Of a DNA stretch of 64,000 nucleotides, positions 1,512 to 63,787 are shown one piece after another. The notes under the pieces are model-generated. The model worked only from the letters and a program-made list of their open reading frames with translations, had not been told where the DNA came from and ran no database searches. The translations under genes and the position numbers were made by a program. The stretch is from contig WFMF01000148.1 of the NCBI GenBank assembly GCA_011033025.1, forward strand, positions 1-64,000. The letters run 5' to 3'. The stretch is from Beroe forskalii (taxonomy: Eukaryota > Ctenophora > Nuda > Beroida > Beroidae). Position 1 is the stretch's first letter. Every line of letters begins with the position of its first letter.

Positions 1512-4500
1512 ATGGCATATTATGTTGTGCTGATTAGCACTTTACTTCTTGACTATGCATTTGGTATTTCTCTGATGGATGGTAGAAACTATGATTGGGA
1601 GATTTACAAGACTACTGAGCATACTCCTTTCCATAAACGGGACAAAAATAATATGTTGATCGATGTTAGAGAGAATACAGTCCATTTTACAGGAACAAAG
1701 TATTCAACTAAAAAGTCATCTGTCAAGTAAGTGATTATCTACCTCATTAATGAGGACTAGATGCATAGTTTTAATTGATACAATAGGTAGTTAGTGCACT
1801 AGAAAGTATTGTCAGTTGCTTCAGTGTGGTTAAACTCAAGAGTCTCATGGTTTCAATTGATTTGAGTAAATTCTGATATTCTTCTTAAGTTGCCAACTTA
1901 TTTGATCAATAACCCCTTGTTTCACTAAATGAGGTCGCAACTAAGAGGAATATCAGAATTTACTCAGATCAATTGAAATTACTGATAGAAGCAAAATAAA
2001 ACATGAAAATGTTTTGCTCACTTTTGCTCTTTAAGAAATATTTATTGTGCAGGGTATATGCAGATACAAGTAAAATCACTAATGGTGACCTTGTGAAGAT
2101 AACCTGGGAAAACCCCAATCCTAATGACTTCGATATGATTGCAATTTATACTCCACCTTCTAGAGAAGTTCAGGTATGTCCACAAAATTTTTCCCTTTTG
2201 AATACCATGCCTAACTCATTGCCACTGAAAGTCTCACGTGATAAGAATTGAGATCCACCTAATTGTAAGAAATGGGTATATGATTCAATTAATATGATCT
2301 AATTATTGTTTACCACATGACATCCTAGTTCTAACTGAAAGAAAAACGTGTTATCTTAACCTTTTTTGGTATTATTGCACCCTTTCCTCATTTTACATCA
2401 TTGTCGTGCTGTGTTCCCTTTACTCCATGTTACTCCATGCTCACACTGTCTTATTTGCCATTTATTTCAAAGTCAAAGAGAAGTGGACAAAATGGTCTGG
2501 TTCTTTTCCTGTTTGTCAATCCATTTTAATTGACCTACTCAAACTTTAGGATTACCTTGACTACAGATATGTGTCTGAAACCACAAATGAGAGTGGTGAC
2601 AAATCTAATGGCTATTTCACAGAAGCATTATATAATATGAGAGCGGACTATGAGCTCAGATATCTTTCAATTGGTAAGTATTCCAAGTTTTCTAGTTGTA
2701 GACTCAATAAACCCCATTGGTGAAATTTAGTTGTAATGATATTCATGATTCATAATAACTCGTGAACAAGCAGTTTTTTTTACAAATTGCTTGTAATTTA
2801 TACTTTTTGAAATACATTATATCCTTCCGTATATTTCCTTACATTTCAGATGAAAAACAAACAGCAACAGTGAGAGCAACTTTTCGCATTTCATTTCCTG
2901 ACAATGAACCCATGCATGGTCACATAGCTGTTACAGAAAAGCCTGGGGAAATGCGTGTCATGTGGGGGAGTGCTAGATCTGATAAACCTCGAGTGAAGGT
3001 AGGTATTTGTAGAAAGGGGTGGAAATCTTAAATTTTTCTGTATATAATGAGTAATAATGACAACACGAATAAATGTGTGAATAGGATACTGTAATATTTT
3101 CTTACTTAATTCTACTATTACAAATGAAAACATTAATTTCACACAAATGAAAACATTAATTTCACACAAATGAAAACATTTATTTTAAGAAATTATCTAA
3201 TTTCAAATTTTTTCAAAATTTTCAAACGTTATTGATAACTGTCAGCCCTTTATAATCATAGTCATACAATTTGCCGATCAGCATTGTCCAAAGCTTGAGG
3301 TACATACTCACTTCAGTTTTCGACCTCTCCCGATATGTCGCATGCAAGGTCAGTGGCTGCCACGACCACCACCTACACTGCAGATGATTTGTGTGGGGCT
3401 CGGGCCAATGTCACAAGTCCCATCATGTACCAGGATCCTGGATTCTTCCACACAGCTACCTTAAAGGTACAGAACTCCATCAAAATGTTTAACTGTATTT
3501 CATGTAAATCCAGGAAACTTCTATCTTCCTATCTGTCTATTCTTCGCCTGGGCAGAATAGAATGGGCTTTTGACGTCAATTAGGTATATATTTCGAAGTC
3601 TAATGTTTTTTCCCAGTATTTTCGTTAAATTTAGTTAAGACCCAACCATTCACCTGTTTGTACCCTTGAAGTTATTAATAAAATATCAAATTCCCCCAAT
3701 TTCCATCCCAGCCAGTACATGAGCACCTCATCAGGACCTGAAGCCTGGAGTGCGGTATTACTACAGCTACGGCACTGACAAGCAGAGCAGTGCTGTTGCT
3801 TCCTTTGTGGGTGCCCCCTGGCCGGACTCCAACGTCACAGAGACTGTGCTGGCGGGTTATGGCGACATGGGCGCCTACTACCCGCCTTATAACGGGGATA
3901 GTGTCGGCGCTGAGCCGGTTACCAGGGGTCTGGAGGCCGACTTGAGGGACGGTAAGGTGGACTTCGTCCTTCACTTCGGAGACCTCAGTTACGCAAGGGG
4001 AAGGGGGTGAGTAAATACAGAAGAAAATGATATAGCGTAGCAGTATAACAGTGCAAGAGTGTAGCAACTTACAATACTGTATCATATTATTGCTAACTGT
4101 ATTATGTTATTACCAATTGGAGGGAAAAACTTAGAATTTACAAATTTAAACATTTCCAATTCGTTGGTTACTTGGTTTCATAGTTTCACCCCGGGTGTCT
4201 CACTGTCTCAGGTACATCTGGGACCAGTTCATGACGCAGATGACATGGCTATCAGAGCGAGTTCCCTACATGGTGGGGGTGGGTAACCACGAGTACGACC
4301 ACGTGAGTGGTGGGGCCAAGGACCCCAGCGGGGCCGAGGGCCAGGGCTTCCACCCGCTGTGGGGTAACTACGGAGAGGACGGGGGAGGGGAGTGCGGTGT
4401 TCCTACTGCTCACAGGTCAGAACTCAGAGAGACTTCGTGATGGGAAGTCATTATCATTGTTTAAAAGTTTAAAGTGGTGAAATTGATGATGTGAGTGGGT

Positions 4501-30290: not shown

Positions 30291-30590
30291 GCCTCTTCAG
30301 CGTCCTCCACCGCCTCTTCAGCGTCCTCCTCCGCCTCTTCAGCTTCTTCCTCCGCCTCTTCAGCGTCCTCTTCTCCCTCTTTAGCGTCCTCCTCCGCCTC
30401 TTCAGCGTCCTCCTCCGCTTCTTCAGCGTCCTCCTCCGTCTCCACAGCGTCCTCCTCCGCCTCTTCAGCGTCCTCCTTCGTCTCCACAGCGTCCTCCTCT
30501 GCCTCTTTAGCGTCCTCATCCGCCTCTTCAGCGTCCTCCTCCGCCTCTTCAGCGTCCTCCTCCGCCTCTTCAGCGTCCTCGCCGGCGTGT
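29560..30590 (-). repeat. 21-bp coding minisatellite, about 49 units, encoding acidic heptads
   Basis: Plus-strand unit gcgtcctcctccgcctcttc (plus a), i.e. E-E-A-E-E-D-A on the minus strand. Every unit is seven codons, so it grows without breaking frame. Variants (GTC, CCA, TTT changes) give V, T, K or D substitutions. At about 30270-30300 one unit is irregular (cctccgtcttcctcc) and the open frame changes there, splitting ORF1. On the plus strand the tract reads as Ser/Ala repeats, which is an artefact. Confidence 0.95.
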
Positions 30591-38386: not shown

Positions 38387-38755
38387 ATGATGACAGACAT
38401 GGACGACAAACCTTCTCTCAGTGAGATTGTTGACATTGACTGTTCAGGAACATTCAAATATGTGTTGATAGAATTGTTCCTCAAAGATGAGACATCAAGA
38501 CTACTTGTCCGTGGCTATTCATGGGGTGCTTACCACGATGATATTTATCAGGAAACATTGAAACAGGCTCTCAAAGAAGGGCTTGACACTGAGTGTCTTG
38601 GTGGTGGGAGAATAACTCATGATGCCACCAAGAAAGACATATTTGTTTATGGTTATTCAATGGGATTTGGTAGAGCAGATCATGCTAAAGTATGTGAGCT
38701 TATAAAAGTTAAATATCCATCCTATAATGTTCATTGGTCTGATGAAGGTTACTAG
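38387..38755 (+). CDS. PHPT1: 14 kDa phosphohistidine phosphatase, intronless, 122 aa
   Basis: Single open frame, full family length (human PHPT1 is 125 aa). Diagnostic blocks in order: VDID-x-x-G-x-FKYVLI, VRGY-x-W-x-x-YH-x-DIY, ECLGGGRI, VYGYSM-x-x-G-x-ADHA, KYP-x-Y-x-V-x-W-x-x-x-GY. H50 in AYHDDIY corresponds to the catalytic His53 of the human enzyme; R75 and the GGG loop are kept. The enzyme removes phosphate from phosphohistidine in cytosolic proteins. ATG 38387 is followed by a second Met; either could start. Vertebrate PHPT1 genes have introns, so this copy may be a retrocopy or may have lost them; no poly-A remnant or flanking repeats were seen. The frame is intact, so it is probably functional. 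Confidence 0.95.
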   Translation: MMTDMDDKPSLSEIVDIDCSGTFKYVLIELFLKDETSRLLVRGYSWGAYHDDIYQETLKQALKEGLDTECLGGGRITHDATKKDIFVYGYSMGFGRADHAKVCELIKVKYPSYNVHWSDEGY

Positions 38756-42600: not shown

Positions 42601-45600
42601 CCTTAGCCTTAGGTCTTAGCCTTAGGTCTTGTATCGAAACTAATTTGTCACTAAGACAGTTCAATTTGTCCTGTTAAGTCGTTTTGTTGGTTTTTTCAAC
42701 TAACTTTATCGCTCGTTATGAGTAGTCTATCAGTCAATTTACTAATTCAAGAGAGAAACAGAATATTGCTAACATTAGACAGGGTTTCATCACGTGTCCT
42801 TATTATAACACTAGTCAGTTGACTTTTTCCCTAAACTATCAGATGGCAGAGTTGAACCAGCACCTTGAGTCCTACAAAAGGGATACCAAAGCTAAGCTAG
42901 CTAAATATAAACAAGCAGAGCAGACCTGGTCTCAGGACAAAGCTTCTTATGAAGAGTCCGTTTCTCAGTCTGAGAGACTGGTTCGTTTGGCATGCGTCCA
43001 ACAATCAAAAGCCTTGATTTTATAATCCGAGTATGATACATGAATTCCAACGGGGATTTAAGATTAAATTTATTCACCCAGTTTACACGCAATCCCAACG
43101 ATTTCATGTTTTTCTCAAGAAAAATGGGGATTTTTTCAAGAAAAAAGCAGTGAATGTCATGCATCAGCATGAATATTGCCTGGGTCCCAAGACCCTGAAA
43201 AAGTCATGATCCCTGTTAAGCCTCTTTTATCTTCTACCGAAAATCTAGGTATTTGTTGTATCAAATCTGGAAAAAAGTTATCAAACTCGTCATTGCATGT
43301 GTGTCATGTTATCCCAGTATGTTGCTAACCCCAAACTCAGATGAGTGAGATGAACCAGTACATAGAAACTTACAAAAAGGAGAGCGAGGCCCAGCTAGCC
43401 CAGTATAAACAGGCTGAAGAGACCTGGGCCGTGGACAAGGCTTCCTATCAGGACTCTGTTTCTCGTCTAGAGAAACTGGTGGGTTTGCTTGCCAACCCTG
43501 CGTGATTACCACTGATATCTCTGTGATTTGCAGTGTGTGATTTACACTATTCTCTCTGTGTGATTTTCAACCAAAAAACCGTGTGACTTAAATGTATAAT
43601 TGTTCTCTGATTTACCCCGTTTTTGTTTAAACAAGAATTGCGATCGTGTTCTCCCCCGTCCCCTTTGCCGTTCGTAGTCAATTAAGCCCTCTCAGGGAAT
43701 TCATTGATGTCTTCCTTGTTTCCAGACACCCTTGTTTGGAATTTGCCTCATTTTGAAGTTTCCACTTTCCAAACCTCACTTCAAGACCAGCAAGCTTTCT
43801 TAAGCTCTTTCTCGTCCTTCATTTTTAGCCCTCTTGAGAGGTGCCCATTCAGCACTCTGATTGTTATTTTTTGTTCCAACAAGCAAATATGCAATGATTG
43901 CTTGCATCGCGCGGCGCGCGCGCAAATCGCAGTAGATGATGAAAAGATTTGGTTTGTGGCGGGTGATCCAGTAACTGTCTTCGCGCGTGACGTAAAGTAC
44001 ATTTGATTGTGGTACATGTCCCACTTTAACAACCGTCCTAACTTTTGGCAATTGGTTTAATTGGCATATTACCACCAAACGAGTAACATCGACCAATTAT
44101 GGTTCAGAATATGTTTCAGATTTAGAAGTACGCAATCCCAATTCATCACGATCTCTGCTAAACCTTCCTCAATGCCTTTTTAATCGAAAAGACGATTGTG
44201 AGAGAAAATAGAAAGGAAGAAACCTCTCAATGTTCGTCTTGTTGTAATGAGTCTTTGATTTGCAGGAGTTTTTTTTATTTCAAATCGATATCACTTTATT
44301 GTAGAACTTCTAAAAAAAGCTCCAATAGTATCCTTTCTTTCACCCCTTTGTGCTTTGTACAGATCTAAAGCTTTACAGATTCTATGACCTAATATGTTCG
44401 CACTGAATCATCTCACACTAGAATCTCTAAATTCTAAACTGTATCGTCTGGTATTCGTTACTGAAGGTCAGTTATGCGCTATACTCCAGCACTTCAAAAT
44501 ATGCGGGGTTAAGTCACCAACTTATTTCTCTAGACTATGATAATGATATCAGTCTCACTCTCTGACAGGCAACACGTTCACTCTTATGTGTACTTCCACT
44601 GCCATCTTGATTTTTAGGGTAACTCTAGACTCAATTTTCACAGACTCACTCTACTTTAATACCCTCACAGTCCCTTTTTCAACTCTACTTTAACTGACTC
44701 TGCCTTGCCAGGTGTACTCGTTGGGAGATGAGTTAGAGACCCTGAGGAAGACTAACTTCAGTCTACATGGTCAGATAGCTGCGTTTGAGGAGGAACACTG
44801 TAGACTCAGAGAGGAAATGGCCAGCAAGGTGAGTAGGGAATGAAATGCTGATTTTGCTTTGCTCTGATGAGCGGGTCTTGTGGTGCTGTCGTGCTTCAAA
44901 CTATGGGCTATGTTGATACTGCATGCTGATTCACTGTTTTGTCCTTTTTCATCGCAATTTCAGCTATTGGTTGATTTATGTTCTAACAACTCCTCTATTT
45001 CCAGGATAAGAAGTTGTCCGTTCTCCTCTCCACTGAAACCTCCCTCCTGACCCTCATTGGACTTATCAACGACATCAAATCCTCTGTCTGTACCTCCTCT
45101 CCAGATGACGCACCCACTGCCCCTACTGGGGATGCTACTGAAGAAGTTGTCACAATCAAAGTCCCCATTCATGCCGAGGACAGTGTCCCAGTTCCTGAGA
45201 TAGTCCCAGAATCAGTGGCAACAGAAACAGCAACTCCAGAGGTGCCTCAGGAGGAAGTTACTGAGGTGCCTCAGGAGGAAGTTACTGAGGATGTAGAAGT
45301 GGAGACTACAGAGGAAGCTAAGGAAGGCAGTGAGCAGTCTTCAGCAGGAGTGCAAGTTTCAGAAGATGCTCCTTCTGATGAACATCCTGTGGAGGAGTCC
45401 ACCCCTCCCGCTGAGTCTGAAATCCTTCCAGAAGCAGAGGCTGAATCTCCCCCAGAACCATCAACTGAGGAAGTAGCCGAGTGTACTTCAGAAGTCCCAG
45501 AGCCAGTAGCCGAATCTTCAGAGCTAGAACCAGTGGCTGAGTCTTCCCCAGAGAAAGCAGAAGCTACAGTTTCAGAGGAACCAGTCTGTGATGTGGCACC

Positions 45601-48450: not shown

Positions 48451-51400
48451 TCTTGCGTTTGGTGTGTTGAGAGCGATGTACATTGGGATCTAGTTACTTG
48501 TACAACTTGTATAGTAGATGGGTGTATCGGCATTGATTATCCATCGATAATATGTATTCTCACGCCTTCTGCTTTTATCGTTTACCTATGTCACACTCGT
48601 TGTCGGCTGTGTTAGATGAATTATGCTGGTTTGATTTCATCGTTTTACCATTTTATAGTGTGAAGATGACGTAACAGTCAGCAGCCTTTTCTTCAATTTT
48701 TGGTTTTACTCTTTCACTTTTGACTGTCACTGCCTTTATTACTTAAGTTACTTTGTCACTTTAGTTTTTACAGTTCTCGCTTTGTGCTTATACTGTGTTT
48801 CAGCATCTGCCATCTTTTGACTTGTAATTTCATGGCTCGGTCAATTTGAGCTCTGCTTTCAACCATTATAGGCCATAGGGTTTGAGCTACATGGATTTCA
48901 AGCGTAGGAGTAGCTGAGAAAGCAACTTGATCATTACCTTCGTCTTTTTAACACATGATTCTTTCCCATTTCATTTGTTTTTTGGTCACCCCGAACATTT
49001 TAAAACTCTCACAAGCATAATTTGCTTATCAGGTCGATTTAGTTGCATTCCAATTTTACATTCCATTCTACTTACGATTCTAAATGATTGAGCTCTCCCG
49101 CCTCTGAAAATCAGACACCAATTTGCCTTCTTGTCTGAAACTCTGATGGCTTCGTCAATGATTTGACCATTCCAATTCTAATACTCTAATAGCCGTTCTA
49201 ATAAAGTAATGATATGCTTTAGATTCGACACAATTCATAATTTCATCTGTTTAAAATCATGAAAAATAAATACTCGACATTCCGCTTGGGATTGCGGATC
49301 ATTTCAATCTAAATGATTGCAGTGTGCCGGTGTTCATTTCTTCAAATTCAATTCTATTTGATTTCTGCTCAATTTGATTTCTCACTTCCTGCCGTTTGTT
49401 CCACGATTTCATTTCATAGAGTAAAAAACTCCTTTAGAACTTCTGATTTAAGCTTCCCTAGTTTAATAGCTCTTTTATACGTTCTCGTTTTGAAGTTATA
49501 ACTTCGAAGCATTCCTTTGGCGCTTTTAACCTAATTTCACTGTTCTGGAAAACCGGTTTACGAATATTCGGAAGCCTTTTACTATTTTACTGAGCTCAAA
49601 AACACTTCTAAAAGCTAAAAGGTTTCCCAACTATTGAGCTCCCTTGCGCTCTCTTGAATTTACCACCATTTACTACCTGCACTTAAACCAACTTTCATAC
49701 AGTGTAACTTTAATTTAAGTAAGTACCCACTGCTATAGTGATTGAGAAATCAAATTAATCACACTCTGCAGTTACCCCCCTCTCTTCCACAGTTCACATA
49801 CTTACACTCACTCAACTCCTAACAACTTTTAGGTAGTCAGAGCTTTGATTGTATCTGGCTTCAGGCACACTTTCACTCTCTGCTTTACCCAGCCTCACTC
49901 CATTTTAGCCTCCCACTTTCTCACTCTCCCTTTGAAAACCTTGAATCGTACGTGTCAGCTCGTGCTTGGGTCGTGCCAGTTCTTCGTTTTTCAACTTTTC
50001 AAGGAAAACGGGAGAGCGTGAAACACATTGATTCCTTTCACTGTTCAACTAAGCTTCGTGATTCTGTACAGCTGTAGTCTACAGTCAACTATAAATAGCC
50101 TTATGTAATGGGCAAGTGTCAGAGTAAAGAGTTAGGTGTCTTCAGAGTAAAAAGTTAGGTGTCTAGATCAGGCCTTCAAATCTGACAGTTTAAAACGTAG
50201 AGTATTATACCTGCTCAAATCTATATATTGGGCACTTGATTGATTGTAATTTTCACGGTCTCAGTACACGGCTCGTGCGAGCTCATTAACTTTTGATTGG
50301 ATTTTTATTAACAAATGTAAGTGTTAAATTAGTTCTTATTAACGAATGCACGCGTTTAATTAGCTTGAAATTGGAATTGTGTCACTTTTGATCCGTGCTA
50401 ATAGAATTGGCTCGATTCAAGATAGGAAACTGCTAATTTTCTAATAAGTAGACCGTCAACCCTTCTCCTCAAATGATCACTGTCTGTTAGACTTAGCCAT
50501 AAACTGTTAAGCCATACACAGATACACTGAAATCGGCGGCGTATTCGCTTACCCATATAAGTAACCCGAACCCCGAAATCATCATGAGATTTACCAATCA
50601 GCACGCAAGTATACGGTCGATTTGCCCGATAACCGATGATGGTTCAAATTCAATGTCAGACGCCGTCAATAATATTGTATTATTGTAATATTATTATCAT
50701 AGGTAAGAAGAAGCGGCTTGGTATTTTGTCAAATCTTCACAAATCCTCAATCCACTTGCGAAATATTGGCGTTTCAACGTCATCAGCTTCCAACATTGCG
50801 CTATGATAATGACCACAACTTGACTGCCTATTTCTCTCTTGGGCGCATTAAACTCAGCATTAAGCAATACCTGTGCCGTGTAAGGCAGAAATGCAGCATC
50901 TGTCAGTGTACCATATGATCGTTGACACAAAACTAAAGCTTGCCGCAGTGATGAAAACAAGGCATACACACACTTGTCACTTAGAATGCCACGACGTCTG
51001 AGAACCTAGTGAGCTTTGCGTGTTCGAGCGTTGGAGATGTTCATCCCATTCCACAAAAATGTGTTCTTTTGACTCATTCTGTAACTAGTGGTTCTGTGCA
51101 TGATTTTCCGTTTTCCCAACTGCATTGGTGCTAAGATCATCATCAATGTTCCTGTCTGAGGGAAAACTTTCTTGGAAACTTTCCAAAGTGATTGAAACCG
51201 ATTTTGATAGAATATCCGTCCTAAAATTCCCCGAACGTGCTTTTTTCCGTCAACTGTTCAATTAGTCCATCCTGCTGTGAGCAATAAAATCACGAACCGT
51301 CGTCTTACACTAACAAACCGGATTCAGCAGCCTTAGGAAAGTGTAAAACACGTTTTGATTCACTCGATCTGTGAAAACTCTAAAGTTCGACTCAGACACA

Positions 51401-51680
51401 GGTACGCCTTGCGTTTTGTCGTTTAGATCGTGTTCAAATGATAGGCGGTTAAGAGCGACGTCAATTATTAGATTTAAAGTGAAGAGTTGACACAATTAAA
51501 CAGCGCACTTTTCTCACTTTTCAAGTGCAACCTCTTAGAGCTGCTTTTAGACGTTTTGCAGTTTATTGTATGGATTTAATCCAGCCCTTGCTAAACCATC
51601 GCGTGCCCTGCAGAAAAGATGACTTACAAATAATCCCTCTCGAATGTTTTATTTTTAGTTCGCACTATATTAGTTAGTAG
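48451..51680. other. Non-coding stretch, nothing recognised
   Basis: About 3.2 kb with only short frames. It may be a 5' UTR or first intron belonging to the CpG-rich promoter-like patch at 48.2-48.45 kb, but no convincing exon was found. A small AT palindrome lies near 50670-50697. Confidence 0.4.
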
Positions 51681-51684
51681 ACTA

Positions 51685-51725
51685 TGACGTCATTATATCA
51701 CTTTTAACATTGTGAATTGGTGAAG
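51685..51725 (+). promoter_or_regulatory. CRE/GATA composite element, copy 1
   Basis: TGACGTCATTATATCA: the CRE octamer is perfect (51685-51692) and the GATA half carries two extra bases. The extension (ttttaacattgtgaattgg) matches the other copies. Confidence 0.65.
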
Positions 51726-53500
51726 TTGAGTGGCCTTATATTATTCGTCCTGCGTTGGATGGAAATCTCTTGAACGACTGTTATACTTTTACTACTACTA
51801 TGTTTACTACTTTACTACTTTATAAGATCCGGATTTCGGTCGTAGTAACGCGTGTTAAAAGGGTAAAGGCGTGTTTTATACTCGTGCCGAATGTTAGTTA
51901 GTGAACAGTAACACTCGGCACGCCCTAAGCTAGTTAATTTATAACACATGTTTAGTGTGCGATTGTAAAGTTTTATTAGTTTATTGTCATTGTTTAATTT
52001 TGGGATATATCTTTTTGTGATATATGGCACCAATCAGGGACACACGCCTATGTTTGACTACTTAGACAGGGTTGTGTAATAAGGCCATACCCTGCATCTT
52101 TTCTGTTCAGCAACGTTTTGTGATGGGAAATTAACTACCACTGGCTAGGTCGATTGAAGTTTGAACTAACCTCGGTCCGACTCTCTTTAGACCCTGAACT
52201 TAGCTGGTAATACTCAGTAATAGGTACGAGAGCCGATTACCGAATGCCTCTTGGAATACTTGCGCTCATGAGTCTGATGAGACTATCTAGCTATTTCACT
52301 GTCATGATCCCATGGTTATTATTTACACTTCACACCGATACAAATAATAACCACAGAAACAGTAATAAGAGTAATACCCTGACAGTGATGAGGTCTCCTG
52401 ACACAATTTCATGTGTCCACGTGGACATAACAAGGTCACAAGGCACGGGTTATGTACTTAGAATATTGGCAGATCTGGTGTGTGACACTCAGCGTGCGAA
52501 TTTAATAATTTTTTTGAATTTAAAATTAGTTCATCTCTCAATCTGTGTTATTAGCAAAAACTTTGTTTTTACTGCGCTTAATCTCATGGAACTCTGTCAA
52601 CTAAATACTAATTATAGACTCAAGTATATCCTTTTTGGCAATTGGCACGCATATATTTTCCACTAAACCCATGTAATAACAACATTACGATGTTAATATA
52701 AGAAGACGAGTGTTGTTGGGACGTGTGTGTAACAGTACCCGATGAGGTTTGAGAGAGAGCGGGTATTTGATTTAATAGCCCTGAGGGCCCCTGTCGTGGA
52801 GCTGTCTGGCATGCACAGGTGGGGAATAGGCGGTGTTACGTCAATAAAACACCATGTTAAGCTATGATAATGACGTCATACTCTCAACTGTCTAATGTTC
52901 GCAACATCTGCAGCTGTCCCATTAAATTATTATTACACTCACTACTACCTCTGCTGTGTGTCCTTCTCAGTGCTCGTGTTGATACTCTCGACGTTATTTG
53001 TTGATGAATCTTTCCGGTGTTGAGTTATTTCGTCGTGTGGGTCGTTGAGATTTCCGGTGTGCGCCGACGGGGGTTGACGCTGGGTCAGGTTTCAGTATTC
53101 TTCAGCCGGTGGTTCGCGTGTTTTCCTGTTTTCTTAATTTCTTTGGGCACTGTGTTTTTTTCTTTTGTTAGGTTTGGGTGGGTTTTTACAGATTTCTCTT
53201 GATCATGTTTGTCGCTGCAATTCAATTGCATCTTGGAAATCCGCACTCCGAACTTGAGTTGTTTCCATCATCCATGAACTTGGTTGAGATCGGACAGTGA
53301 ACTTAGTGACATTCCCCAGCTTGAAGTTTACAATATTCTGATCTACCTACTTATCGTTGGTCTGAGTTTGATTATCTAGGGTAAATTATTGGGAATTATA
53401 AGTCGCGTCGTGGAAACAAGTGTGAATTGTCCCAAATAATCACACTCTAAATGTGTCTAGAAAAGAGTGGTTTAAACAATCTGAAAATCGTAATCTCCGT
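51726..53500. other. Non-coding stretch between element copies 1 and the first CCAAT array
   Basis: Holds composite copy 2, otherwise no recognised gene. Open frames such as 52244-52666 lack any recognisable domain. Confidence 0.4.
52838..52878 (-). promoter_or_regulatory. CRE/GATA composite element, copy 2 (reverse)
   Basis: Plus strand reads atgataatgacgtca; on the minus strand TGACGTCATTATCA followed by tagcttaacatggtg. CRE 52871-52878. Its downstream flank (ctctcaactgtct) resembles that of the copy at 56830-56871. Confidence 0.75.
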
Positions 53501-53503
53501 CCT

Positions 53504-53725
53504 GATTGGTCGTCGTTTTCCTAAACGTCTTCCGATTGGCTGTTTGAATCTAAACGCCGTCTGATTGGTTTTCATTTGTTCTTTACACAACCTGGCTTCT
53601 AATTCAGATATTACTGTGACTCGCAACATGTTTCAGCCAATGAAATCCCTGTAAAACACATCACGTGACATGTTTCAGTCAATGAAATCCCCGAAAAATG
53701 TTCACGTGACTTAATGCTGCACGTG
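53504..53725. promoter_or_regulatory. CCAAT array and CCAAT/E-box tandem repeat
   Basis: Inverted CCAAT (GATTGG) at 53504, 53534 and 53563, spaced 30 and 29 bp within an imperfect 30-bp repeat. Then two tandem units of about 41 bp, each with tttcag-C/T-caatgaaatcc and tcacgtgac (CACGTG at 53662-53667 and 53703-53708), and a third CACGTG at 53720-53725. Confidence 0.65.
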
Positions 53726-54224
53726 TGTGCGCGCACCCCAATTAGTAGAAACACTGTCTAAGTGCTATAATCTGCTAATGTGCGGAAGTGAAGTGGGATG
53801 TCTCATGTTAGGAGGCTTCTTAAGTCTGTCTACCACTCCTTTATACCCTGATCCTACCTCCTTTCTTCCACCAATTTACTTCCAAATCTCTCCTACTTCA
53901 CTCCCCCTTTTCCTTCCAATTTCCTCTCCTTTCCAGCATCCTGCGTCTGTACCACTCTCTGATCCTGTCCTCCCAAAGTAGCCTATCTTCTCTCCCCTTT
54001 CAACCATATTACCCAATACCCTTCCAAATCTACTCTCCTTCATACTATTCAGACTCTTTTCCCTTCTTTTCGCTTCTTTTCCCAATTTCCCCCTCTCTTC
54101 CCTGATCCTGATTTCCCAACTCCCTGCCATTTTAGGAGGGTAATCTGTAATTAGTCCGACACTTTGCCTCAACACACACGCCAATCTAATCCGAGTCCCG
54201 CCCAAAATATTAGGCGGTTTCAGA

Positions 54225-54265
54225 TGATGTCATTATCAGGGTTTTAAAATGGTGAAATGCTGACA
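54225..54265 (+). promoter_or_regulatory. CRE/GATA composite element, copy 3 (CRE with one change)
   Basis: TGATGTCATTATCAGGG, one mismatch in the CRE octamer, then ttttaaaatggtgaaatgct. Confidence 0.7.
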
Positions 54266-54507
54266 TTTGGTGGTCTATTATGAGTGCGCGCGTCGCGTAT
54301 ATTTAATTTGTTAATACAAACGCCAATTATTAACGCAATGATTCGCGCCACTAATAATTATACCTGCGATTCTGCCTACGATCAAAGGTCTCTCTCCTCC
54401 TTCTTCTCCTTCTCTCATTAATAATTAATGATTCCCAGCTCACGAGATAGGAGAGAGTGTTATACACAGACACTAATTGTTAATAAACACTCATCTCTCA
54501 CTAACAT

Positions 54508-54662
54508 CACGTGACATGTTAGTTTTAATGAAGGAGCAGTGCGCCAAGTCTCGCTTCGGCACGAGTGCTATATTTGAGTGGTGGTGGTGGAGGAGAGAGT
54601 TGGCCAATCAGAGAAGAGTACTGAGAATCCGACCAATGGGAGAAGAGTATTTTGATCACGTG
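54508..54662. promoter_or_regulatory. E-box and paired CCAAT boxes
   Basis: CACGTG at 54508-54513 and 54657-54662 in the same tcacgtgac context; CCAAT at 54604 and 54633, 29 bp apart within an imperfect repeat (gagaagagtact / gagaagagtatt). Confidence 0.6.
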
Positions 54663-55508
54663 ACGCATCACAAGAGCTGGGACCTGTTTGCACCCTACCA
54701 CCTTGGGTTGACATGAGATTAACACAGTGTGGTTTTTGTGACATGGTGGGGAGATTATAACACACTGTGTGGTTTTTATGTGGTGGTTTTGTGGGTGTTG
54801 TGATAAGGAGTTCCTTTGTGTGGGGTTCCGGCTTGCTTCAGACTAGTTCCATGTGGTTTTGGAGTGAGGGGGCCTATTTCTGCACCCCTTTATCATGTTG
54901 GCTGTCTGTTGTCCTTCCTGAGCACTCAGTTTCTCTCACTCATGTTCCTTCTGCGTACTTAAGACTGAGATTGTTTCTCACCCTTTAAACTTTTTAAGTT
55001 TAATCGGTTCGAACCCCAACATACGCTCCTTCAGGCGTCGTAAAAATAATTGGTTGCTGTTTTGCATGCTTATTTCTTAGATTTTGTGCCAAAAACGCTG
55101 CACACCATGATACTGGACGGATTATATCTGTGTATTGAGATTATTGACCGCACTGTTGATAATTAATTAATTAATTAACGTCTGTTTTTAGTGCCACGCC
55201 TTGACAGGGTGATACTAGTGTTGGGGAATAATATCAGTATTATGTTTTTTAACATATGTTAAAATTTCTAATGTGGAAATTGTTAATTTGCTCGTCGCGT
55301 GTATGTATAAACCTAATGTTTTTTCAATGTTTTTGCAATAATAATACAAATTACAAAAAAGGGTGTAATTTTCCTTTTTTCCCTTGATTACTTTTGCCTT
55401 TCTACTTGTCCACGTCTCTCATGAAGTTTTCTCTCGTTGCATATTCTTTTTCTGACTCTTCATCTGTGCATCACACTGACTACACTGACTATATGATAGC
55501 TGTATTAT

Positions 55509-55531
55509 TATCATACTATGATAGTATGATA
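55509..55531. repeat. Near-perfect 23-bp palindrome
   Basis: tatcatactatgatagtatg plus ata: reads the same on both strands except at the centre. Surrounded by further atgatagct repeats. Confidence 0.8.
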
Positions 55532-55649
55532 GCTTCACACTGAATATATGATGATAGCTGTGCTCTCGTCTCTGACAGTATGAATCTTGGCGACAGAGAT
55601 CCTGATATCCCATCTGAAATGACCTCTATAAACACACTATACGCAGGAA

Positions 55650-55685
55650 CCAATCACAAAGCAAGTGTAAACAATCCCATCCAAT
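55650..55685. promoter_or_regulatory. CCAAT pair, 31 bp apart
   Basis: CCAATCA at 55650 and CCAATCAGA at 55681, both NF-Y type. Confidence 0.45.
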
Positions 55686-55952
55686 CAGAATGGAGTATTC
55701 ACTGTGTTATAAACGTTATGTAATTTGTAGTTTTATGCAGGCAATAGGTGACTGAAAAGTGCACTTGGTATGAAAAACAAGTGCACGCTTCAATCTGACG
55801 TTATTTTCATACCATCTTATGTTAGATTTCCTCCTTTTAACCGCCTATTTTCCGCACACTTCAGCACATAAACAAGTTTAATATATATAATCCAGTGCGT
55901 GCTTATATGAGTTGACATCACTTTCTTCTTCCAGCACGCGCAGTAATATCCA

Positions 55953-56023
55953 CCAATCACTGCCCTGCATCCGGAGGATGCTGCTCGCTGATTGGTTGTG
56001 TGATGCCCGCCTGTGGGTATAAA
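55953..56023 (+). promoter_or_regulatory. Promoter-like CCAAT/TATA arrangement
   Basis: CCAAT at 55953-55957, inverted CCAAT (ATTGG) at 55991-55995 and TATAAA at 56018-56023, with CpGs between. A start site would be near 56050. No ORF or recognisable RNA follows. Confidence 0.5.
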
Positions 56024-56829
56024 GTAAGATTAGTACAGTGGTCTGGCTTCTGTAATTGTGTCAGGAATTAAAAGCATGAGGTATTTTTAGTTCGCCAGAA
56101 CGTCGCTTTCTTCCAAGAACTACAGTACTAGGACCGTGTAAAGAACCGTATACTGGAGTACAGGAGGTTTGTTAGTGGAGTGCTTTCCTCTCTTTTCCGT
56201 TTTACTTTCCGTTCCGTTTTACATTCCGTGAATCCTTGTCCGTAGAGTGGTGTCAAACGGTAGTGGCGTCAAGGCTAAAGTGTCAACGTATTACCTATAC
56301 CGGTATAAGCGTACAGTAGTGTAAAATTTAGTGATGTCAAAGTATATTGGTGTCAACATTTGTACTTTTTAGTGGTTGTCAAACTCACAAATCATACTTT
56401 TGTAAACGTAGCTTCTGAGTTCTGTAGAAGAGTTCCTTCTCTCAAAATGCCTCTTCTCGGCACGTGTGCACTACACGATGAAGTGATTACATAATCTGAC
56501 TGAGTGACTTGCCAACTGTCACCGGGAATTTGAGCGATTTGAAGTATTCCTGTTTTCAGACCTTTGATATGCACTTGTACTATTTTCATTCAAATACCGA
56601 TCATGCATCTTCAAGCTTCTTCCAACGTCTTCAAGCCCCTTGACTGCATCCCATTCAACGTCTTCCTCGATTATTTATCTCAACCGAAAAAATCTGTGAA
56701 AAATTTTCAATAGACAAGGAATTTGATGTCAACAGGTCGCGGATCTCTCTTGTCAGGCTATGCAGAATAATATGGCGTGGCTTCATAACACCGCAGGAAT
56801 TTTAATAAAACATCGGAAATAGGCCATGT

Positions 56830-56871
56830 GATTTCATCAAATCACTACGTTAAGCTATGATAATGACGTCA
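56830..56871 (-). promoter_or_regulatory. CRE/GATA composite element, copy 4 (reverse)
   Basis: Plus strand acgttaagctatgataatga followed by cgtca; CRE 56864-56871. Shares ctct-aactgtct downstream with the copy at 52838-52878. Confidence 0.75.
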
Positions 56872-57300
56872 CTCTAAACTGTCTGTTCGTATGTTCATCA
56901 CTTAATAAAACACCGGCTCATGCTAAAGGAATGTTTACGTTTTAGGTGGCATCCGCATAACTACGCCGGGTGCAGAGTATTCGACAGAGTTCGGGGTTTT
57001 CGCGAACTTTGCGCCGCGTTTGATGAATTTATCGTTGCACTTAAATTTACCTGCATTTTGATTTTCATCGCACTTAATTTTAAATTTTCCCACATTTTGA
57101 TCGTCCCGCATTCGAATTTTCTCAACCCGCACGACCATTGGATGATTTGGATAGCATTCCCGCGCGCGCGTCTCTCACCTCTCCTCCCTCTGCAATGTCT
57201 CACACATTGTCATCCTATAATAGCTGTATATAGTTAATAATAATAATAATTAACACATCGTACACTTGTGATGTTTATGAAGGAGCACACCTCCTCCCTA

Positions 57301-57306
57301 TATAAA
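57301..57306 (+). promoter_or_regulatory. TATA box candidate
   Basis: TATAAA within cctatataaactcc, preceded by atgaaggagcacacctcc; no ORF follows. Confidence 0.35.
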
Positions 57307-57459
57307 CTCCTCTCATTGCGAGGTAATAACAAACACATCAACAGCTCCCCCGTTAAACTGCAGCTCTTCCCATGAGTTGATGAGAAGAGAGGGAGGCGGG
57401 CCCCCGCCCCCCGGACGCCTGCTCGTGTATAGGATGTAGGAGAGGAGTAGGGGACTTAG

Positions 57460-57512
57460 TGACGTCATTATCAGGGTTTAACATGGTGTGTTGTGAGGGT
57501 TGCCATGGTTAC
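57460..57512 (+). promoter_or_regulatory. CRE/GATA composite element, copy 5, with RFX-like site
   Basis: TGACGTCATTATCAGGG then tttaacatggtgtgttg. An imperfect RFX X-box (gttgccatggttac, 57499-57512) follows 31 bp after the CRE. A TATA box (57301-57306) lies about 160 bp upstream. Confidence 0.75.
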
Positions 57513-57519
57513 TAGAGGA

Positions 57520-60360
57520 GGTAGAGGTGTACTCGCTGACGAGGGTTTAACAGAGAGCCATCAACAGAGGGTGTTAAACCGGTTACAGGACCCAACCCAA
57601 CTACCTGGTATATATCCCACCCTCCTGTACTAATCACCTCTTTACGCGTACACAGAATATAGGTGTTTATTGTCATTGTTGTTTTTTCATTGACTGGATC
57701 ATCAAACATGGTTTTAAATCCATTGATTATTATCTCATCCTTAAGTCAAAATGTTCTAGTACTAATCAGCTCTTTACGCACTGTGTACACCCGAGCCATA
57801 GTGATAGAGGTGTTTATTGATTATTGTTTTTTCATGACTTCATCATATTGATTGGGTGATCAAACAGGTTTTAAATCTTTAAAACTTTTTTGATTATCTC
57901 ATCCAATCTTCTCTGAGTTTGGATCTCAGCCAATCAAAACTTTAAGAAATTGAGAATTTTGAAAGCTCTTCCCGAACAAAGCTTCAGCTAACTTCCAGCA
58001 GCTTGAAAGGTGTTCCAGTTTTACAAGCTTCATTCCTTCCTTCATTTCTATTTATTTCGATGGATTGAAGTAAAGATATCGCAATGTCCTCTCTCCTCAA
58101 TCCCCCCTCCCTCTACACTTCCCTTTCTGTTCTTTGTTGTAAGGGATTGGAGGAAAGATATCAATGTTCCCTCTATTCCCCTCCCTCTATACTTCTCCCT
58201 CCTCCTCTTGTCACCCCTAGTGAAGGTCTGCACGGCACACAGAGTAATTATTCCTTATAAGGACATGTGCCCCTCCACCACACTACATGAATACAAGGGG
58301 ACCACCACTCAAAGCCACGATCACAGTACAGTGCTCTATTGTGTGACCGCATGCCTCTCTCTCGTCACTTACCCTCTAACTCACTCTCCTCTAAACTCAC
58401 TCTCTTTCACCCATTCAAGCAACTTGTCTCCACCTCACGCACTGTTACTTTTAACGCACGTTGGCAGATATCGGGTGGTTTCTGTTGTGATTTTATATTT
58501 ATTGAATCGTGCGCTGTGAGCACTTCCATTTGTTGAAAAGTGCAGTGGACTTGTTTCTATTTGTCTTTGTCCTTCTGTCATTGAAGTCTGTCGGTGTCCG
58601 TAAGTCTTTATATGTTGCTGTGTCTCTATGTGAGTTTTACGTTGTCTGTGTGTTTGTTTGTAATCTGTATGTCCGTTTGTTTGTCTGTGTGTCCGTGTGT
58701 CTGTCTGTTTGTTTGCCCGTCTCTGCCCATACTGGTAAGCGGTGGTACGGCGCAGCACTTATACGATGCCCGTCCGGAGACTAGATGGTCGGACACTCCA
58801 TAACCGGCTTCAGTGCTCACCATTATATTACTACTTTACCAGTTACTTGTAATTCTTTTGTTGTCGCGAGGTTTTACATTGTGTACTTTCATTCATGTTG
58901 TGAGTCTTTTGTGTCCAGAATTCGGAATTTCCTGTTTTCATAGTTCTGTGATTTAATAACCTCGGTATCTTCCTTGATCTCAGTTTTCAGAGGCTGTTTG
59001 TTTTAAGCCGTGCTACCCTATATTCCGTTTTTTTCGGAAACTTTTCTTATTTGTCTTGAAACTTTGGAATATAAGTATCCATTATCCAATAATACACGAG
59101 GTTTTGCCTTAATATGTCAAATTTAGAGTTTAAAAATAACAAGTTTTTAATTTAGATTTAAAGTCGCAAGTGACAAAATTATAGCCGGTACGTATGTGTT
59201 GACGGAAATTCTTCCTATTTTAAAGTTTAAACATGAATTACTTTCGCTTGGTCACGCATGAAACGGCGCAGGTTTTCCTGTATTTGGACACTTAATTATC
59301 TTAGAATTAACATTGCCGTCGAGGGAATTTCCGGCCCTCCGAAGATGCCGTAATTCTTATTTTCTTAAGGGCTACCATTGGAAGATTAAAACTCTGTTCT
59401 CTGTTGTTCGGCTGTTTTAAAGAATGCCCTTCACCAGATCAAGTGAGCAACCTTGCAACCTTAATCTTTCATTTCACAAATGGAAATTTTCCAGCATTAG
59501 AATTATCTAGCCGATTTGAAATTCTTAACTCGACTGATCCCCTCAAAGACAACTCAAATTCTAATGCCGAACACTCTGCAGCTTCTTTGCGGTCTGCGGC
59601 AATATACCTCACTGTTTTCTGACAGAGTTCGGCATTACTGAAACATAGAACCCAAAGTAAAGACCATACGACACCAGACACCCACATTCCACCCTTAGGT
59701 ATTCTATCACTCCTACTTAATTCTACCCACATTCCACCATTCCACTGCACCACGACACTGCAGAATTCTGTGGATTCCTGTAGGAATTATTCTCTGTCAC
59801 CATTCCATCCACATTCTTCTACTGAAATTACCTGCTCTAATCTAGCGCTTTCAGGGCTACCTAGCCGACTGCTGTATCTTAAAGCAGCTCAATTTGAGTG
59901 ACAATCTTAAAGTTTTTCTGTTGTCAAGATCAAGAATACTAGAATAGAAGAGATTTGATAAGTATCCCCTCGGGGTAAAAGTCAAATTCCCAATTACTTA
60001 AATTAGTTGAGTAGTTGGCTCCCTGACACAGCCTGGCTCTGCCTCTCTATTGCGATTCTCTGGATCTCAGATGCCTCTCTATTGTGATTCACTAGATCTG
60101 TTTATTCTTCAGTAGGTATATATTTCAGTATACCTATTTCAGACCGGCTTAGTGTACTTGACACCTGTCACCCTTGTAATTCTCCGGCTTTAAAATCACT
60201 AAACGTAGGGTAAATGACGGCACAAGATCCCCCCATCACCATACAATTCCCATCAACCCCATGTACTCTCAGAATGTACAGAAGACCCCTGGTGCAGTGT
60301 ACACGAAATGTACAATTCGGTATTCCCCCTCGCTCTGCAAGGGAGCGATGATTGGGGTCT
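57520..60360. other. Non-coding stretch
   Basis: No gene recognised. Includes a T/G-rich low-complexity tract at about 58555-58725 (tgtgtctgtctgtttg-type words) and pyrimidine-rich runs near 58.1 and 58.4 kb. Open frames through these tracts are compositional. Confidence 0.4.
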
Positions 60361-60462
60361 GGTTGCTAAGAATAAACCTCAGAGCTCACCCTCCTCACTA
60401 AAATACCCCAGTGATCATGACGTCATTACCACAGTTCAGAGTGTTGAGTTGTTGCCATGACG
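60361..60462 (+). promoter_or_regulatory. CRE/GATA composite element, copy 6, flanked by RFX half-sites
   Basis: CRE TGACGTCA at 60418-60425 followed by ttaccacag (GATA half has one change). GGTTGCTAAG at 60361 and GTTGCCATGA at 60451 are X-box half-site matches on either side. The extension reads ttcagagtgttgagttg. Confidence 0.6.
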
Positions 60463-60629
60463 CCGCCTAACGCCTGCAGAGTGTGTTGCGCGGGTGTTTT
60501 ACATAAGACTCTCTCTGTTGCCATGGTGATGACAGCTCCGCTCGTGCATTCTCTGTAGGACTTCCTCCAGTCTATAGCATTACTAGCAGCCATATTATAC
60601 GGGTTGTATTGGGTAGTATAGGCGCTAAC

Positions 60630-60670
60630 ACCTCACCAATTGAGCGTGTTAAGCTGTGATAATGACGTCA
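60630..60670 (-). promoter_or_regulatory. CRE/GATA composite element, copy 7 (reverse)
   Basis: Plus strand gtgttaagctgtgataatga followed by cgtca; CRE 60663-60670. The reverse extension ends in caattggtg. Confidence 0.75.
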
Positions 60671-61409
60671 TCAGCACGCGTCTATTCCCTGCTCACGACA
60701 CATAACCCATAGACTTCAGACCTTTCCAAGAGTACGAGCCCTCCGGCATGTTTTGTACGCTGTTAATCCTTTCAAATTACATTGCGTTTCTCGGACTTGT
60801 GTATATGCCGTGTAGGGGTTTTGCAGTGCGCTATAGCGTATGTTGGTACGCCTGCAGGACTTGATTTCTTATAGTTACGAATATTACACTGACCCGTGTG
60901 CTAGACCAAGCCTCAAAAATCATCAACGCCCCCCCCCCTCCCATCCCCTCAAACCAAAATGTCGCCTTCTCAAACACACGTATAAACACACGTATAAACA
61001 CACACATACAAAGATACAGGTTCAAATGTTCCACGTTCCATATACCCCCGTTGTCGCCCCCTCAGTCCCTTCATATATTAACAGTAACCAGTTGAAATGT
61101 TCCCATTTCCGTCGGGTGATGACGTGCCACCTCTCCCCCCTGTATATTGAGTGTGATAAGTATATTGTTTAAACATTGACGAGTGTGATAAGTTTAAATA
61201 TCGTGTGATAGGTTTAAACTAACAATATACTGACACGGGTATCGTATTATTGAGCTCATCATCATCTCCTGAAGATTGGTTATTATCGGGGGTAGTGTTG
61301 AAGGGCCATGTTTAACATTAGATGATGTACACTTTGTAACAGAATCTGCACGTGCCACTGGTTACGGGCACGTGTTTATAACAAGGGGCACAGAATCCTA
61401 TATTCTTGT

Positions 61410-61515
61410 AATAGGGTACACTGGGTTGCTATTTGTTATTTTGGGTTGCTAAGATACATGCTCCTTGATTTCTAGGTTACGTCGGGTTGCTTGGTTACAC
61501 TTGGTTGCTTGGGTT
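61410..61515. repeat. Clustered ggttgct words (RFX half-site-like)
   Basis: gggttgcta, gggttgctaag, gggttgcttggttacac and tggttgcttgggttacac lie within about 100 bp. The last two are an imperfect 17-18 bp tandem repeat. GTTGCTAAG resembles half of an RFX X-box. Confidence 0.5.
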
Positions 61516-61960
61516 ACACAATTCAGTGTGATTTGAAGCAACACCACGCTAAAACGTGCTGATTCTCATGATTCTTTGTGACCTTTGTTTTCAATGTTCC
61601 CTCTGTGCAAACGCAGTGAATTAATTTGTGAAGCAGTGAATCAAGCCATATGCAAATTCCTGCTTTGTTTGAGCCATTACCTTTTCTATCATTAGTTTTG
61701 TTGTCCTGAATCGATAATGAGCTTTAATCAATGATAGGCTTCAAATCACCAGTTCTACCCTTTCACCCCATTGCTGATAGGTTTTCTGGGAATCCTCCTG
61801 GTTCTACTCCAACAATAGCTATTTCTGTGCAGCATATATATTAGCATATCAAACACGGGTGTTTTGTACCCCTTTGTTTCCTGGTGTTTCACAACCAGGC
61901 ACCACTTTTAAAGATACAGTATACACCACCCTCACCCACACATCACGCGTCGGGGTGAGA

Positions 61961-62015
61961 TGACGTCATTATCATAGCTCAAAGTTGCGTCTTATTGGCA
62001 TTGCCAATATATAAA
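61961..62015 (+). promoter_or_regulatory. CRE/GATA copy 8 within a CCAAT/TATA promoter
   Basis: TGACGTCATTATCATAGC at 61961, then inverted CCAAT (ATTGG 61994-61998), CCAAT (62004-62008) and TATAAA (62010-62015), all within 55 bp. This is the most complete RNA polymerase II core-promoter arrangement in the window; transcription would start near 62040 on the plus strand. No ORF follows. Confidence 0.6.
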
Positions 62016-62188
62016 CTCGAATAGGATCCGCCCCCAAAGACAATACATATCTCAGTGAAATAGGGCTCACGGCTCATGGCACGTTTACCGATTGTTTGAG
62101 TGTCTCTAATTGGGCTCAGGGCACGTTTTACCCAAATAATGGCACACACAGAGAACAGCTCTCATCATCACTGGCGCCAGTGTCTGAT

Positions 62189-62250
62189 TATCTGATCTGA
62201 TTGGTGGATCAGAGTGACGTCATAATCAGGCTGCAGAATGGTTAATTGAG
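62189..62250 (+). promoter_or_regulatory. CRE/GATA composite element, copy 9, next to a CCAAT box
   Basis: TGACGTCATAATCAGG (CRE 62215-62222; GATA half with one change), then ctgcagaatggttaattgag. An inverted CCAAT (ctgattgg) sits about 15 bp upstream of the CRE. Confidence 0.65.
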
Positions 62251-63217
62251 TGCGTTGTATCGCCTACTTCTCCAATGCGCTCGGCTAATTGATGGCGCGT
62301 GTATCGTAAGCTCGTGGCACGGACCTGTATCTTGTACACTGAGTTAGGAACATACCAATTATGTAGTGTTCATGAATGGGTTCCAGTCTGTTATCGATGA
62401 ATGTCTAACTCTGATTAGGAATGCCAAATGATCAGTTGATCACGTACACCAGATATCCATGATGGGGTACGCTGCTCAGTTGAATACCCAGCAGGATCCC
62501 CGTCTTGGGATGTCTAAATCTGGCAATTCATGCCAAGTGATTAGCGATCACGTACCAGTTTATCCTCTTATCATTGTATGTTGTTATGTTGTATGAGCAT
62601 GTGGACTCGTGCATTGCCGCACTGTAAAGTGCGCATAATTTTCTGAATCTTGTCTTCTTTACTTCGCAGTTGATTTGTGTTCTACGTCTACATTTTTCAT
62701 GAAACTTTCAACGTCCATTTTACGAACCACTTCTAAGATGTTGCATCTCCACCAGTATCAATTATTACAGTCGGCACAAATTTCTTCCGAATTTGTCCTT
62801 TGAAACGTAGCAGACAGGGCAGAAAGCCTTAGAACGTCTGGGGAACGCGTTTTGATTCTCATTTCATAGTTTCTGAAAACATTTTAGTGATGCCCGTTTT
62901 CTACGTTAATTTGTTTCATATGATTCTGGTTTATTATTTAGTTATTTGTTGACAGGTGACTACTTTGTATTGAGTGGCTTTGGGCGAATGTAACGCCGTA
63001 CGGAGATCATTGCATCATACATACTTTGTCTTTTGGTTAAGTCTGCGCACTTAAAACGGTAGTTTTTAAGCCGACCAATATCACGAATATCAAAGCCAAA
63101 TGAAGCTGACTGCAGCGACATTTCCTGTTTACGTATGTACGTTTAAGTTCTTTGTAATCTGTTTTGAAAGGCTGAACCATCCACCTTGGTTAAGTTTAAC
63201 CGCCCAGTCCTCCCCAA

Positions 63218-63370
63218 AGTAACTCTCCATGAGTTCCCCATATTTACTATCCAAGGTCCTCCGTGAGTCCCTTGAACAGTTCCAGGACTCCCCATGTTCC
63301 CTCTCTGAACTCTCCTGCAGCACTGCAGTCTGATGAGCCACACATTGCCTCCATAGTAACTCTCCATGAG
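63218..63370. repeat. Imperfect repeat, agtaactctccatgag twice
   Basis: 63218-63233 and 63355-63370 are identical, about 137 bp apart, in generally repetitive ctcc/gagtccc sequence. Confidence 0.5.
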
Positions 63371-63558
63371 TCCCCTTCTCTACTACCTGAAGTCCCCTGA
63401 ACCACTCCATTCCATCCTTGATTCACTCCGTGAACCACTCCAGACCTTGTTGTAACTGCTTGTTTATGCTCCGCACTACATAACAAGCTCCCTCATATTC
63501 CTCATATTTGTCGTGGGAAGAGTGAGCAGGCTGCTCACAAAAACTAGGCTGGAGAGAA

Positions 63559-63600
63559 TGACGTCATTATCAGGGCTTAGAATGGAGAATTGATGAAGTC
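63559..63600 (+). promoter_or_regulatory. CRE/GATA composite element, copy 10
   Basis: TGACGTCATTATCAGGGC at 63559, then ttagaatggagaattgatg. Perfect CRE and GATA halves. Confidence 0.75.
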
Positions 63601-63787
63601 AGACCGTGTTCTTTTCAAGCGCGACATGTAGTTCCGCTGTCCTTTACACACTGAGTTCGTAATCATTGTGGATTTTCTGTTTTCTAGGAAGGAGGTGAAT
63701 TTGACGAATCCTAGAACTGCAGCTAGGGGCATATCATGGTCATGAGTTGAATAATTTATCATAAATTTCCAGCTTACTAGATCCCTC

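Follow-up and report, generated by a model that had tools for sequence, protein, structure and literature searches.

In the ctenophore Beroe forskalii, contig C190 of the 216-Mb assembly opens with a 64-kb stretch (the whole of what was analysed, termed the window) that carries a cluster of short composite sites in which a cAMP response element (CRE)-like octamer, TGACGTCA, abuts the string TTATCA. The octamer is classically bound by CREB/ATF, and the abutting string is a GATA-type half. The sites are copies of a dispersed repeat that, judged from its sequence, is a new family of an already known kind, the miniature inverted-repeat transposable elements (MITEs). MER121 of mammals is an old repeat family for which constraint is shown by cross-species alignment; many of its copies, as of those described here, are seemingly kept by selection in place, whereas in Beroe the constraint is read from within one genome. 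Stowaway MITEs, of the Tc1/mariner type, end in CTCCCTCC and share with the Beroe elements a TA at both ends, a short length and terminal inverted repeats (TIRs). By contrast, the Beroe elements are not linked to a transposase, and their ends read WACGCC (at greater length WACGCCGCG), unlike the Stowaway end.

Certain DNA transposons are described as carriers of protein-binding motifs. In Brassicaceae, E2F sites were multiplied by MITEs (Henaff et al. 2014, as summarised in the review PMC12595863); these are, as here, short TIR elements that multiply a short binding motif, while the Beroe repeat appears to differ in bearing a composite CRE-like 14-mer in a 41-bp unit, in belonging to a ctenophore and in having a unit that outlasts its arms. 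In Mnemiopsis leidyi, excerpts of PMC12221973 describe 4,261 loops, a two-CpG, GC-rich motif in >75% of loop anchors, two ctenophore-specific C2H2 proteins at the anchors (CTEP1/CTEP2) and DNA-transposon insertions in >90% of looping promoters; in placozoans, the same excerpts describe Mutator TIRs that carry the loop-anchor motif. As portrayed there, the placozoan Mutator and ctenophore anchor systems resemble the Beroe family in having a DNA-transposon-borne motif across a small non-bilaterian genome, and the CTEP motif has two CpGs, as does the 41-bp unit. Unlike the placozoan motif, which lies inside the TIR, the kept part of the Beroe element lies between the TIRs, and unlike the CTEP motif, described as GC-rich, the Beroe unit is not GC-rich and is known from sequence alone. 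Within the open-licence literature searched, the family appears to be undescribed: the string TGACGTCATTATC has no occurrence there, and no description of the element is found in the titles and abstract starts of the ctenophore MITE/TIR literature. A search of IMG/VR for relatives gave 0 matches.

The well-kept elements share one design: TA, WACGCCGCGCRCGAGAAATAGGCGG (a TIR of ~25 bp), a spacer of ~6, the 14-bp core TGACGTCATTATCA, a 31-nt middle, the inverted arm and TA, with ~101 bp between the TA dinucleotides. Some copies carry AAATAGGCGG upstream and CCGCCTATTT downstream, and CCGCCTA stands at a fixed place with ≤1 mismatch in 19 of 142. The arm 14-mer CCGCCTATTTCTCG has 850 exact occurrences genome-wide (control 0), and among the first 100 of these places are 13 inverted pairs (26 places), 12 of them spaced at 65 nt and one at 68. 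The element was read out from 12 of these pairs and from 28 single-arm places, the 13th pair being in L016. Between the arms, which are GC-rich, lies an internal unit of ~41 bp with the consensus RTGACGTCATTATCAkrGyTYAAaaTGGTGARTTGATGACG, two CpGs and ~35% G+C (consensus count). The family is short and non-coding, at ~101 bp, and numbers thousands of copies, as is typical of MITEs, while the TIRs also expected of a MITE are found in the well-kept copies only. In the 28 single-arm copies, the left flank has T in 21 and A in 26, and the right flank has T in 21 and A in 22; these counts are consistent with TA, and a likely reading is a TA target duplication. Two armed copies of contig C161 (L037 and L063) have identical cores and flanks 91.6% identical over 358 columns, a likeness that points to duplication of a larger segment.

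The exact core occurs 7,719 times genome-wide (3,926 on one strand and 3,793 on the other), compared to 3 (1 + 2) for the reversed control; counts of families of this size are to be read as 'at least'. With ≤1 mismatch the count is 17,705 (control 92) and with ≤2 it is 31,278 (control 2,076), or ~29,000 net of control. By mismatch class, again net of control, there are ~7,700 cores with none, ~9,900 with one and ~11,600 with two. The last class exceeds the ratio to the second that a single Poisson distribution would give, and thus the family is probably a mixture of copies that are kept and copies that decay. Copies are scattered in both orientations and in clusters. On contig C1, the 69 sites up to 2.04 Mb have a variance/mean of 4.42 in 25-kb bins (simulated maximum 1.69, n=2,000), with 16 sites in the fullest bin compared to a simulated maximum of 8. 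Many local clusters exist, among them that of the window stretch, and others are as dense. Of the readings offered by the first-pass annotation, that of a small dispersed repeat carrying the sites is borne out by the 7,719 exact copies and the TIR element behind them. The same annotation had held that thousands of evenly spread, neutrally decaying copies with no open chromatin would mark an ordinary repeat; the thousands of copies are present, but their spread is clustered and their decay is uneven.

Other arrangements of the core or unit are also noted: (i) a dense cluster at G000:C1:326181-351339, with 17 exact cores in 25 kb on both strands, (ii) a tandem array at G000:C1:1189187-1189418 (L018), with seven exact cores spaced 36-38 bp apart, (iii) a run of the middle 14-mer at G000:C66:246280-246888, mostly at 31-bp spacing, and (iv) a core copy within another, AAAAATCCCCATATTTTC-like repeat at L002:1406-1615 and L016:763-961, the two stretches being 87.6% identical.

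The core and the arms of the element do not decay alike. A set selected by its core would make that part look better kept than it is; thus, copies were picked by other parts. Among the 12 arm-paired copies, picked by an exact arm, 3 of 168 core positions are wrong compared to 16 of 228 in the adjoining GTGAGTTGATGACGTTGAA, and among the 28 single-arm copies, picked likewise, the figures are 26 of 380 and 75 of 531; the arm-picked copies were aligned to the full consensus, and every part is slightly favoured by this. A set of 43 copies was picked by the middle 14-mer GTGARTTGATGACG alone, from the first 100 places listed (39 newly retrieved and four taken from the arm-picked copies; those on C1, those beyond C66:397150 and the tandem runs of C16, C66 and C88 were omitted). 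In this set, ≤2 mismatches are seen in the core of 32 copies, in the right arm of 7 and in the left arm of 7 (the control mean is 7.9 mismatches). Compared with the right arm, the core is better in 39 copies and worse in two; compared with the left arm, the counts are 33 and three. In none of the 43 is a core with ≥4 mismatches joined to an arm with ≤1.

Five of the 43 copies, which belong to tandem or tandem-like runs, were set aside for the next comparison. In 27 of the remaining 38, both arms have ≥4 mismatches of 14. Left-right complementarity in these arm-poor copies is 15.8, compared to 16.2 in crossed pairs, which amounts to none; they are thus not elements bearing other TIRs, and the reading of older copies as having different TIRs is rejected. 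The arm-poor copies instead retain traces of the known arms, with TAGGCGG matching at 3.96 of 7 positions (2.88 at control places) and CCGCCTA at 4.00 (2.42). Genome-wide, exact 14-mer counts fall from 7,719 for the core to 1,792 for the middle and 850 for the arm, of which each element has two. Among 136 core-picked copies, a copy's own arms score 17.7 and crossed arms 16.3, a slight difference that is expected as some copies retain arms. In the flanks of 133 non-tandem copies the known arms are the most enriched words, while other words reach at most 7.7-fold.

In the window, the TGACGTCA octamer occurs 11 times compared to 0.72 expected, and 0 of 100 shuffles reach 11; nine of these are found from position 51685 onwards, in the final 12.4 kb. 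The nine perfect CRE octamers counted there by the first-pass annotation are therefore confirmed, and the window total of 11 withstands the shuffled-sequence control. The octamer matches the CREB/ATF (basic leucine zipper, bZIP) site, as does the position-by-position consensus of the copies, and TTATCA, the reverse of TGATAA, fits WGATAA as a string match only. All ten CRE-GATA places reported are present with ≤2 core mismatches each: six match the 14-mer TGACGTCATTATCA exactly (52871r, 56864r, 57460, 60663r, 61961 and 63559), three (54225, 60418 and 62215) differ by one mismatch and 51685 differs by two. The TTATCA said to abut the CRE throughout is exact at seven of the ten (the six exact places and 54225) and altered at the other three. 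The alignment of a further ~25 bp downstream to a consensus also stands, as the similarity is real when copies are aligned; the shared unit is ~41 bp, with weaker likeness outside it.

At ≤3 mismatches, TGACGTCATTATCA has 29 matches in the window compared to 6.66 expected, several of the 29 being opposite-strand readings of one palindromic octamer. Six exact cores in 12.4 kb compare to a genome mean of 0.44 (Poisson 7e-6, for a stretch chosen for its excess). The longest stop-to-stop frame listed in the 12-kb stretch is 170 aa. In the sequence searched, an iterated profile has 153 hits, compared to 0 in the same sequence reversed. Sixteen of these hits fall within the window, of which 15 are distinct because 60411r re-reads the copy at 60412, and five places (4444, 44503r, 48628r, 50769r and 51444) are added to the earlier ten. 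The cluster extends rightward past the window, as all five of the next 10-kb stretches (L009-L013) hold copies with ≤2 mismatches. The copies of the window are:

4444..4492, plus strand: weak decayed copy, profile E 0.0074
44503..44558, minus strand: decayed copy outside the 12-kb stretch, profile E 2e-7
48628..48686, minus strand: decayed copy outside the 12-kb stretch, profile E 3.4e-7
50745..50850, minus strand: decayed, near full-length copy with both arms recognisable and core TGTGGTCATTATCA, profile 50769-50823, E 6e-8
51444..51503, plus strand: decayed copy, newly found, profile E 3.2e-5
51678..51729, plus strand: decayed copy (reported at 51685), core with 2 mismatches, profile E 7.6e-6
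52830..52890, minus strand: exact-core copy (52871r), right-arm start CCGCCTA kept, family D2, profile E 4.8e-13
54213..54266, plus strand: copy with 1 core mismatch (TGATGTCA), left-arm start TAGGCGG kept, profile E 7.1e-9
56825..56882, minus strand: exact-core copy (56864r), profile E 1.8e-13
57458..57493, plus strand: exact-core copy (57460), profile E 3.2e-8
60412..60466, plus strand: copy with 1 core mismatch (60418), then CCGCCTA, profile E 1.3e-9
60626..60672, minus strand: exact-core copy (60663r), profile E 7.2e-9
61953..62001, plus strand: exact-core copy (61961), profile E 5.6e-8
62204..62263, plus strand: copy with 1 core mismatch (62215), profile E 2.3e-8
63547..63606, plus strand: exact-core copy (63559), top score of the window, profile E 7.8e-15

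A possible very old copy is seen by eye at 55796-55809, where TGACGTTATTTTCA and CCGCCTATTTTCC stand at about the right distance and the profile has no hit. Most of the 43 scored matches to an 8-kb query from the window fall on the copy at 50745..50850, at 78-86% identity over roughly 60-100 bp. That the window has a duplicate or a second haplotype was considered and rejected, as the 40 candidates scored for the 8-kb query gave only short matches besides the window itself.

The dispersal of the site by a MITE-like family is well supported, and the architecture, the copy number and the outlasting of the arms by the core and unit are observed features of the genome. It is probable, with some reserve, that the family spread the composite CRE-like site and that many copies have since been selected as putative protein-binding sites. 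A transposase acting in trans would scatter the ~41-bp unit genome-wide in both orientations, and host DNA-binding proteins would then bind many of the copies. The simplest binder would be a CREB/ATF-type bZIP protein that occupies TGACGTCA next to a partner bound to the adjoining letters, while a single protein with a long footprint across the 41 bp would fit equally. Selection, which is proposed because decay is uneven between core and arms within one genome, would keep the core and unit in part of the copies while the arms decay. If selection on the core is real, a mobile element has supplied thousands of copies of one binding site in an early-branching animal lineage, which would be timely in that the excerpts of PMC12221973 tie ctenophore loops to DNA transposons without a causal link. 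The conserved core is what raises the family above an ordinary repeat. If the MITE part alone holds, what is left is a routine but useful annotation of a repeat, and a caution that clustered motifs in raw sequence often turn out to be repeats.

Several observations weigh against MITE dispersal followed by selection. The ends are palindromic (YTA...TAR); thus, a TA duplication is inseparable from an extended TIR, and no empty site is seen. An autonomous partner with matching TIRs is not found; a PF01359 search is without a match, as are its controls, and a PF13358 (DDE_3) profile search gives five genomic matches, among them C191:184994-185431 and C378:34829-35296. The central CpG decays in part, although most cores keep it: the TGAYRTCATTATCA form of the core, which admits CpG transitions, has 9,025 occurrences, and subtraction of the 7,719 exact ones leaves 1,306, ~13% of the ~9,900 single-mismatch copies (the observed/expected ratio of CpG is 0.66 for the window, compared to 0.76 for 20 sampled 10-kb stretches). 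The middle has more than one form, and its divergence may in part be subfamily structure. The arm-poor copies have an identity per position of ~86% in the core and ~53% in CCGCCTA, the latter an underestimate, as poor arms were the criterion by which these copies were chosen. Duplicated copies that could act as a clock are too few, with the core identical in L071/L072 and different in L082/L083. Finally, selection on every copy is not credible given the copy number, and at most a part of the copies can be constrained.

The chief competing account, possible though clearly the less probable of the two, is an ordinary MITE with no role in the host, in which source elements needed the core to transpose and the arm-poor copies are old or rearranged. 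The MITE architecture and the clusters agree with it, as does the core of well-kept copies, only ~2-4 times less diverged than its neighbour, and two forms of the middle are visible, as changing sources would give. Neutral decay, however, should strike core and arms alike, whereas the core is much the better kept in the 43 middle-picked copies, and the arm-poor copies, which retain remnants of the usual arms and lack inverted repeats of any other kind, nevertheless keep the core identity given above. Less probable again is that the transposon-seeded, two-CpG 41-bp unit serves, genome-wide, as an architectural site, or one that tethers enhancers, for a DNA-binding protein peculiar to the lineage; as a loop-anchor or insulator site it would be bound by a multi-zinc-finger protein comparable to CTEP1/CTEP2 of Mnemiopsis, an unlikely proposal. 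A zinc-finger array would be a suitable reader of a long unit that is partly degenerate and has two CpGs, and M. leidyi has loops, a two-CpG motif and DNA-transposon insertions at looping promoters (as excerpted from PMC12221973). The published motif is, however, GC-rich, compared to ~35% G+C in the unit, a comparison with its text description only, and Mnemiopsis is a distant relative (50% in one protein). If true, a transposon would have laid down three-dimensional genome wiring that was selectively kept after its ends decayed.

Local readings of the cluster fare worse than MITE dispersal with selection. A regulatory array for genes near 51-64 kb with a fixed CRE-GATA geometry, special to the stretch, had been suggested by the first-pass annotation, and the fixed spacing of the half-motifs and the local excess agree with it; the 7,719 exact composites, their clusters elsewhere and their position inside a repeat largely refute it, and it is now most improbable. 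An array particular to this locus is unsupported because the unit clusters elsewhere in the genome. The annotation's promoters of unrecognised RNAs likewise find no backing, and copies that yield hairpin or other small RNAs are very doubtful: being inverted repeats, well-kept copies could form hairpins, but an Rfam search of the window has no match, the window copy with both arms (50745-50850) folds like its shuffles (z -0.11) and the conserved part lies between the arms, not in the arms that would pair. A tRNA search of the window also finds none. As improbable as the local array is a unit rooted in a 31-36-bp minisatellite and also occurring singly. Tandem arrays do exist (C1:1189187-1189405 and C66:246280-246888), and the TGACGTCA-like end of the unit resembles its start, which would aid slippage; however, only 24 of 157 sampled core matches (≤2 mismatches) have a neighbour within 60 nt, and single copies bear arms or arm traces.

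Other features of the window include receptor-like frames, tandem repeats and a retrotransposon-like frame. The minus-strand frame at 19229-20917 is receptor-like, with LDL-A repeats and seven helices, and its relatives carry PF00057 and PF00001. A search with its protein gives 23 matches, of which the closest reach 76%; the Mnemiopsis leidyi protein, the best named match at useful coverage, is 50% identical over 94%, and the next named animal is Styela at 25%. From this one gene, the host would be a ctenophore other than Mnemiopsis, and a sponge host, considered at first, is rejected. A second minus-strand frame at 11416-14478 is judged by eye to be receptor-like as well, with LDL-A repeats and seven helices. 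The plus-strand frame at 38387-38755 encodes 122 aa, and its relatives carry PF05005 (14-kDa phosphohistidine phosphatase/janus); the best named matches to its protein are from insect, bryozoan, frog and sponge, with no named ctenophore among them. A 1,245-aa open frame on the minus strand at 23517-27254 is by eye similar to non-LTR (long terminal repeat) retrotransposons. Tandem repeats are found at 29577-30580 (21 bp, 47.5 copies, within long open frames on both strands) and at 6796-7558 (44 bp, 17.5 copies, 93% matches).

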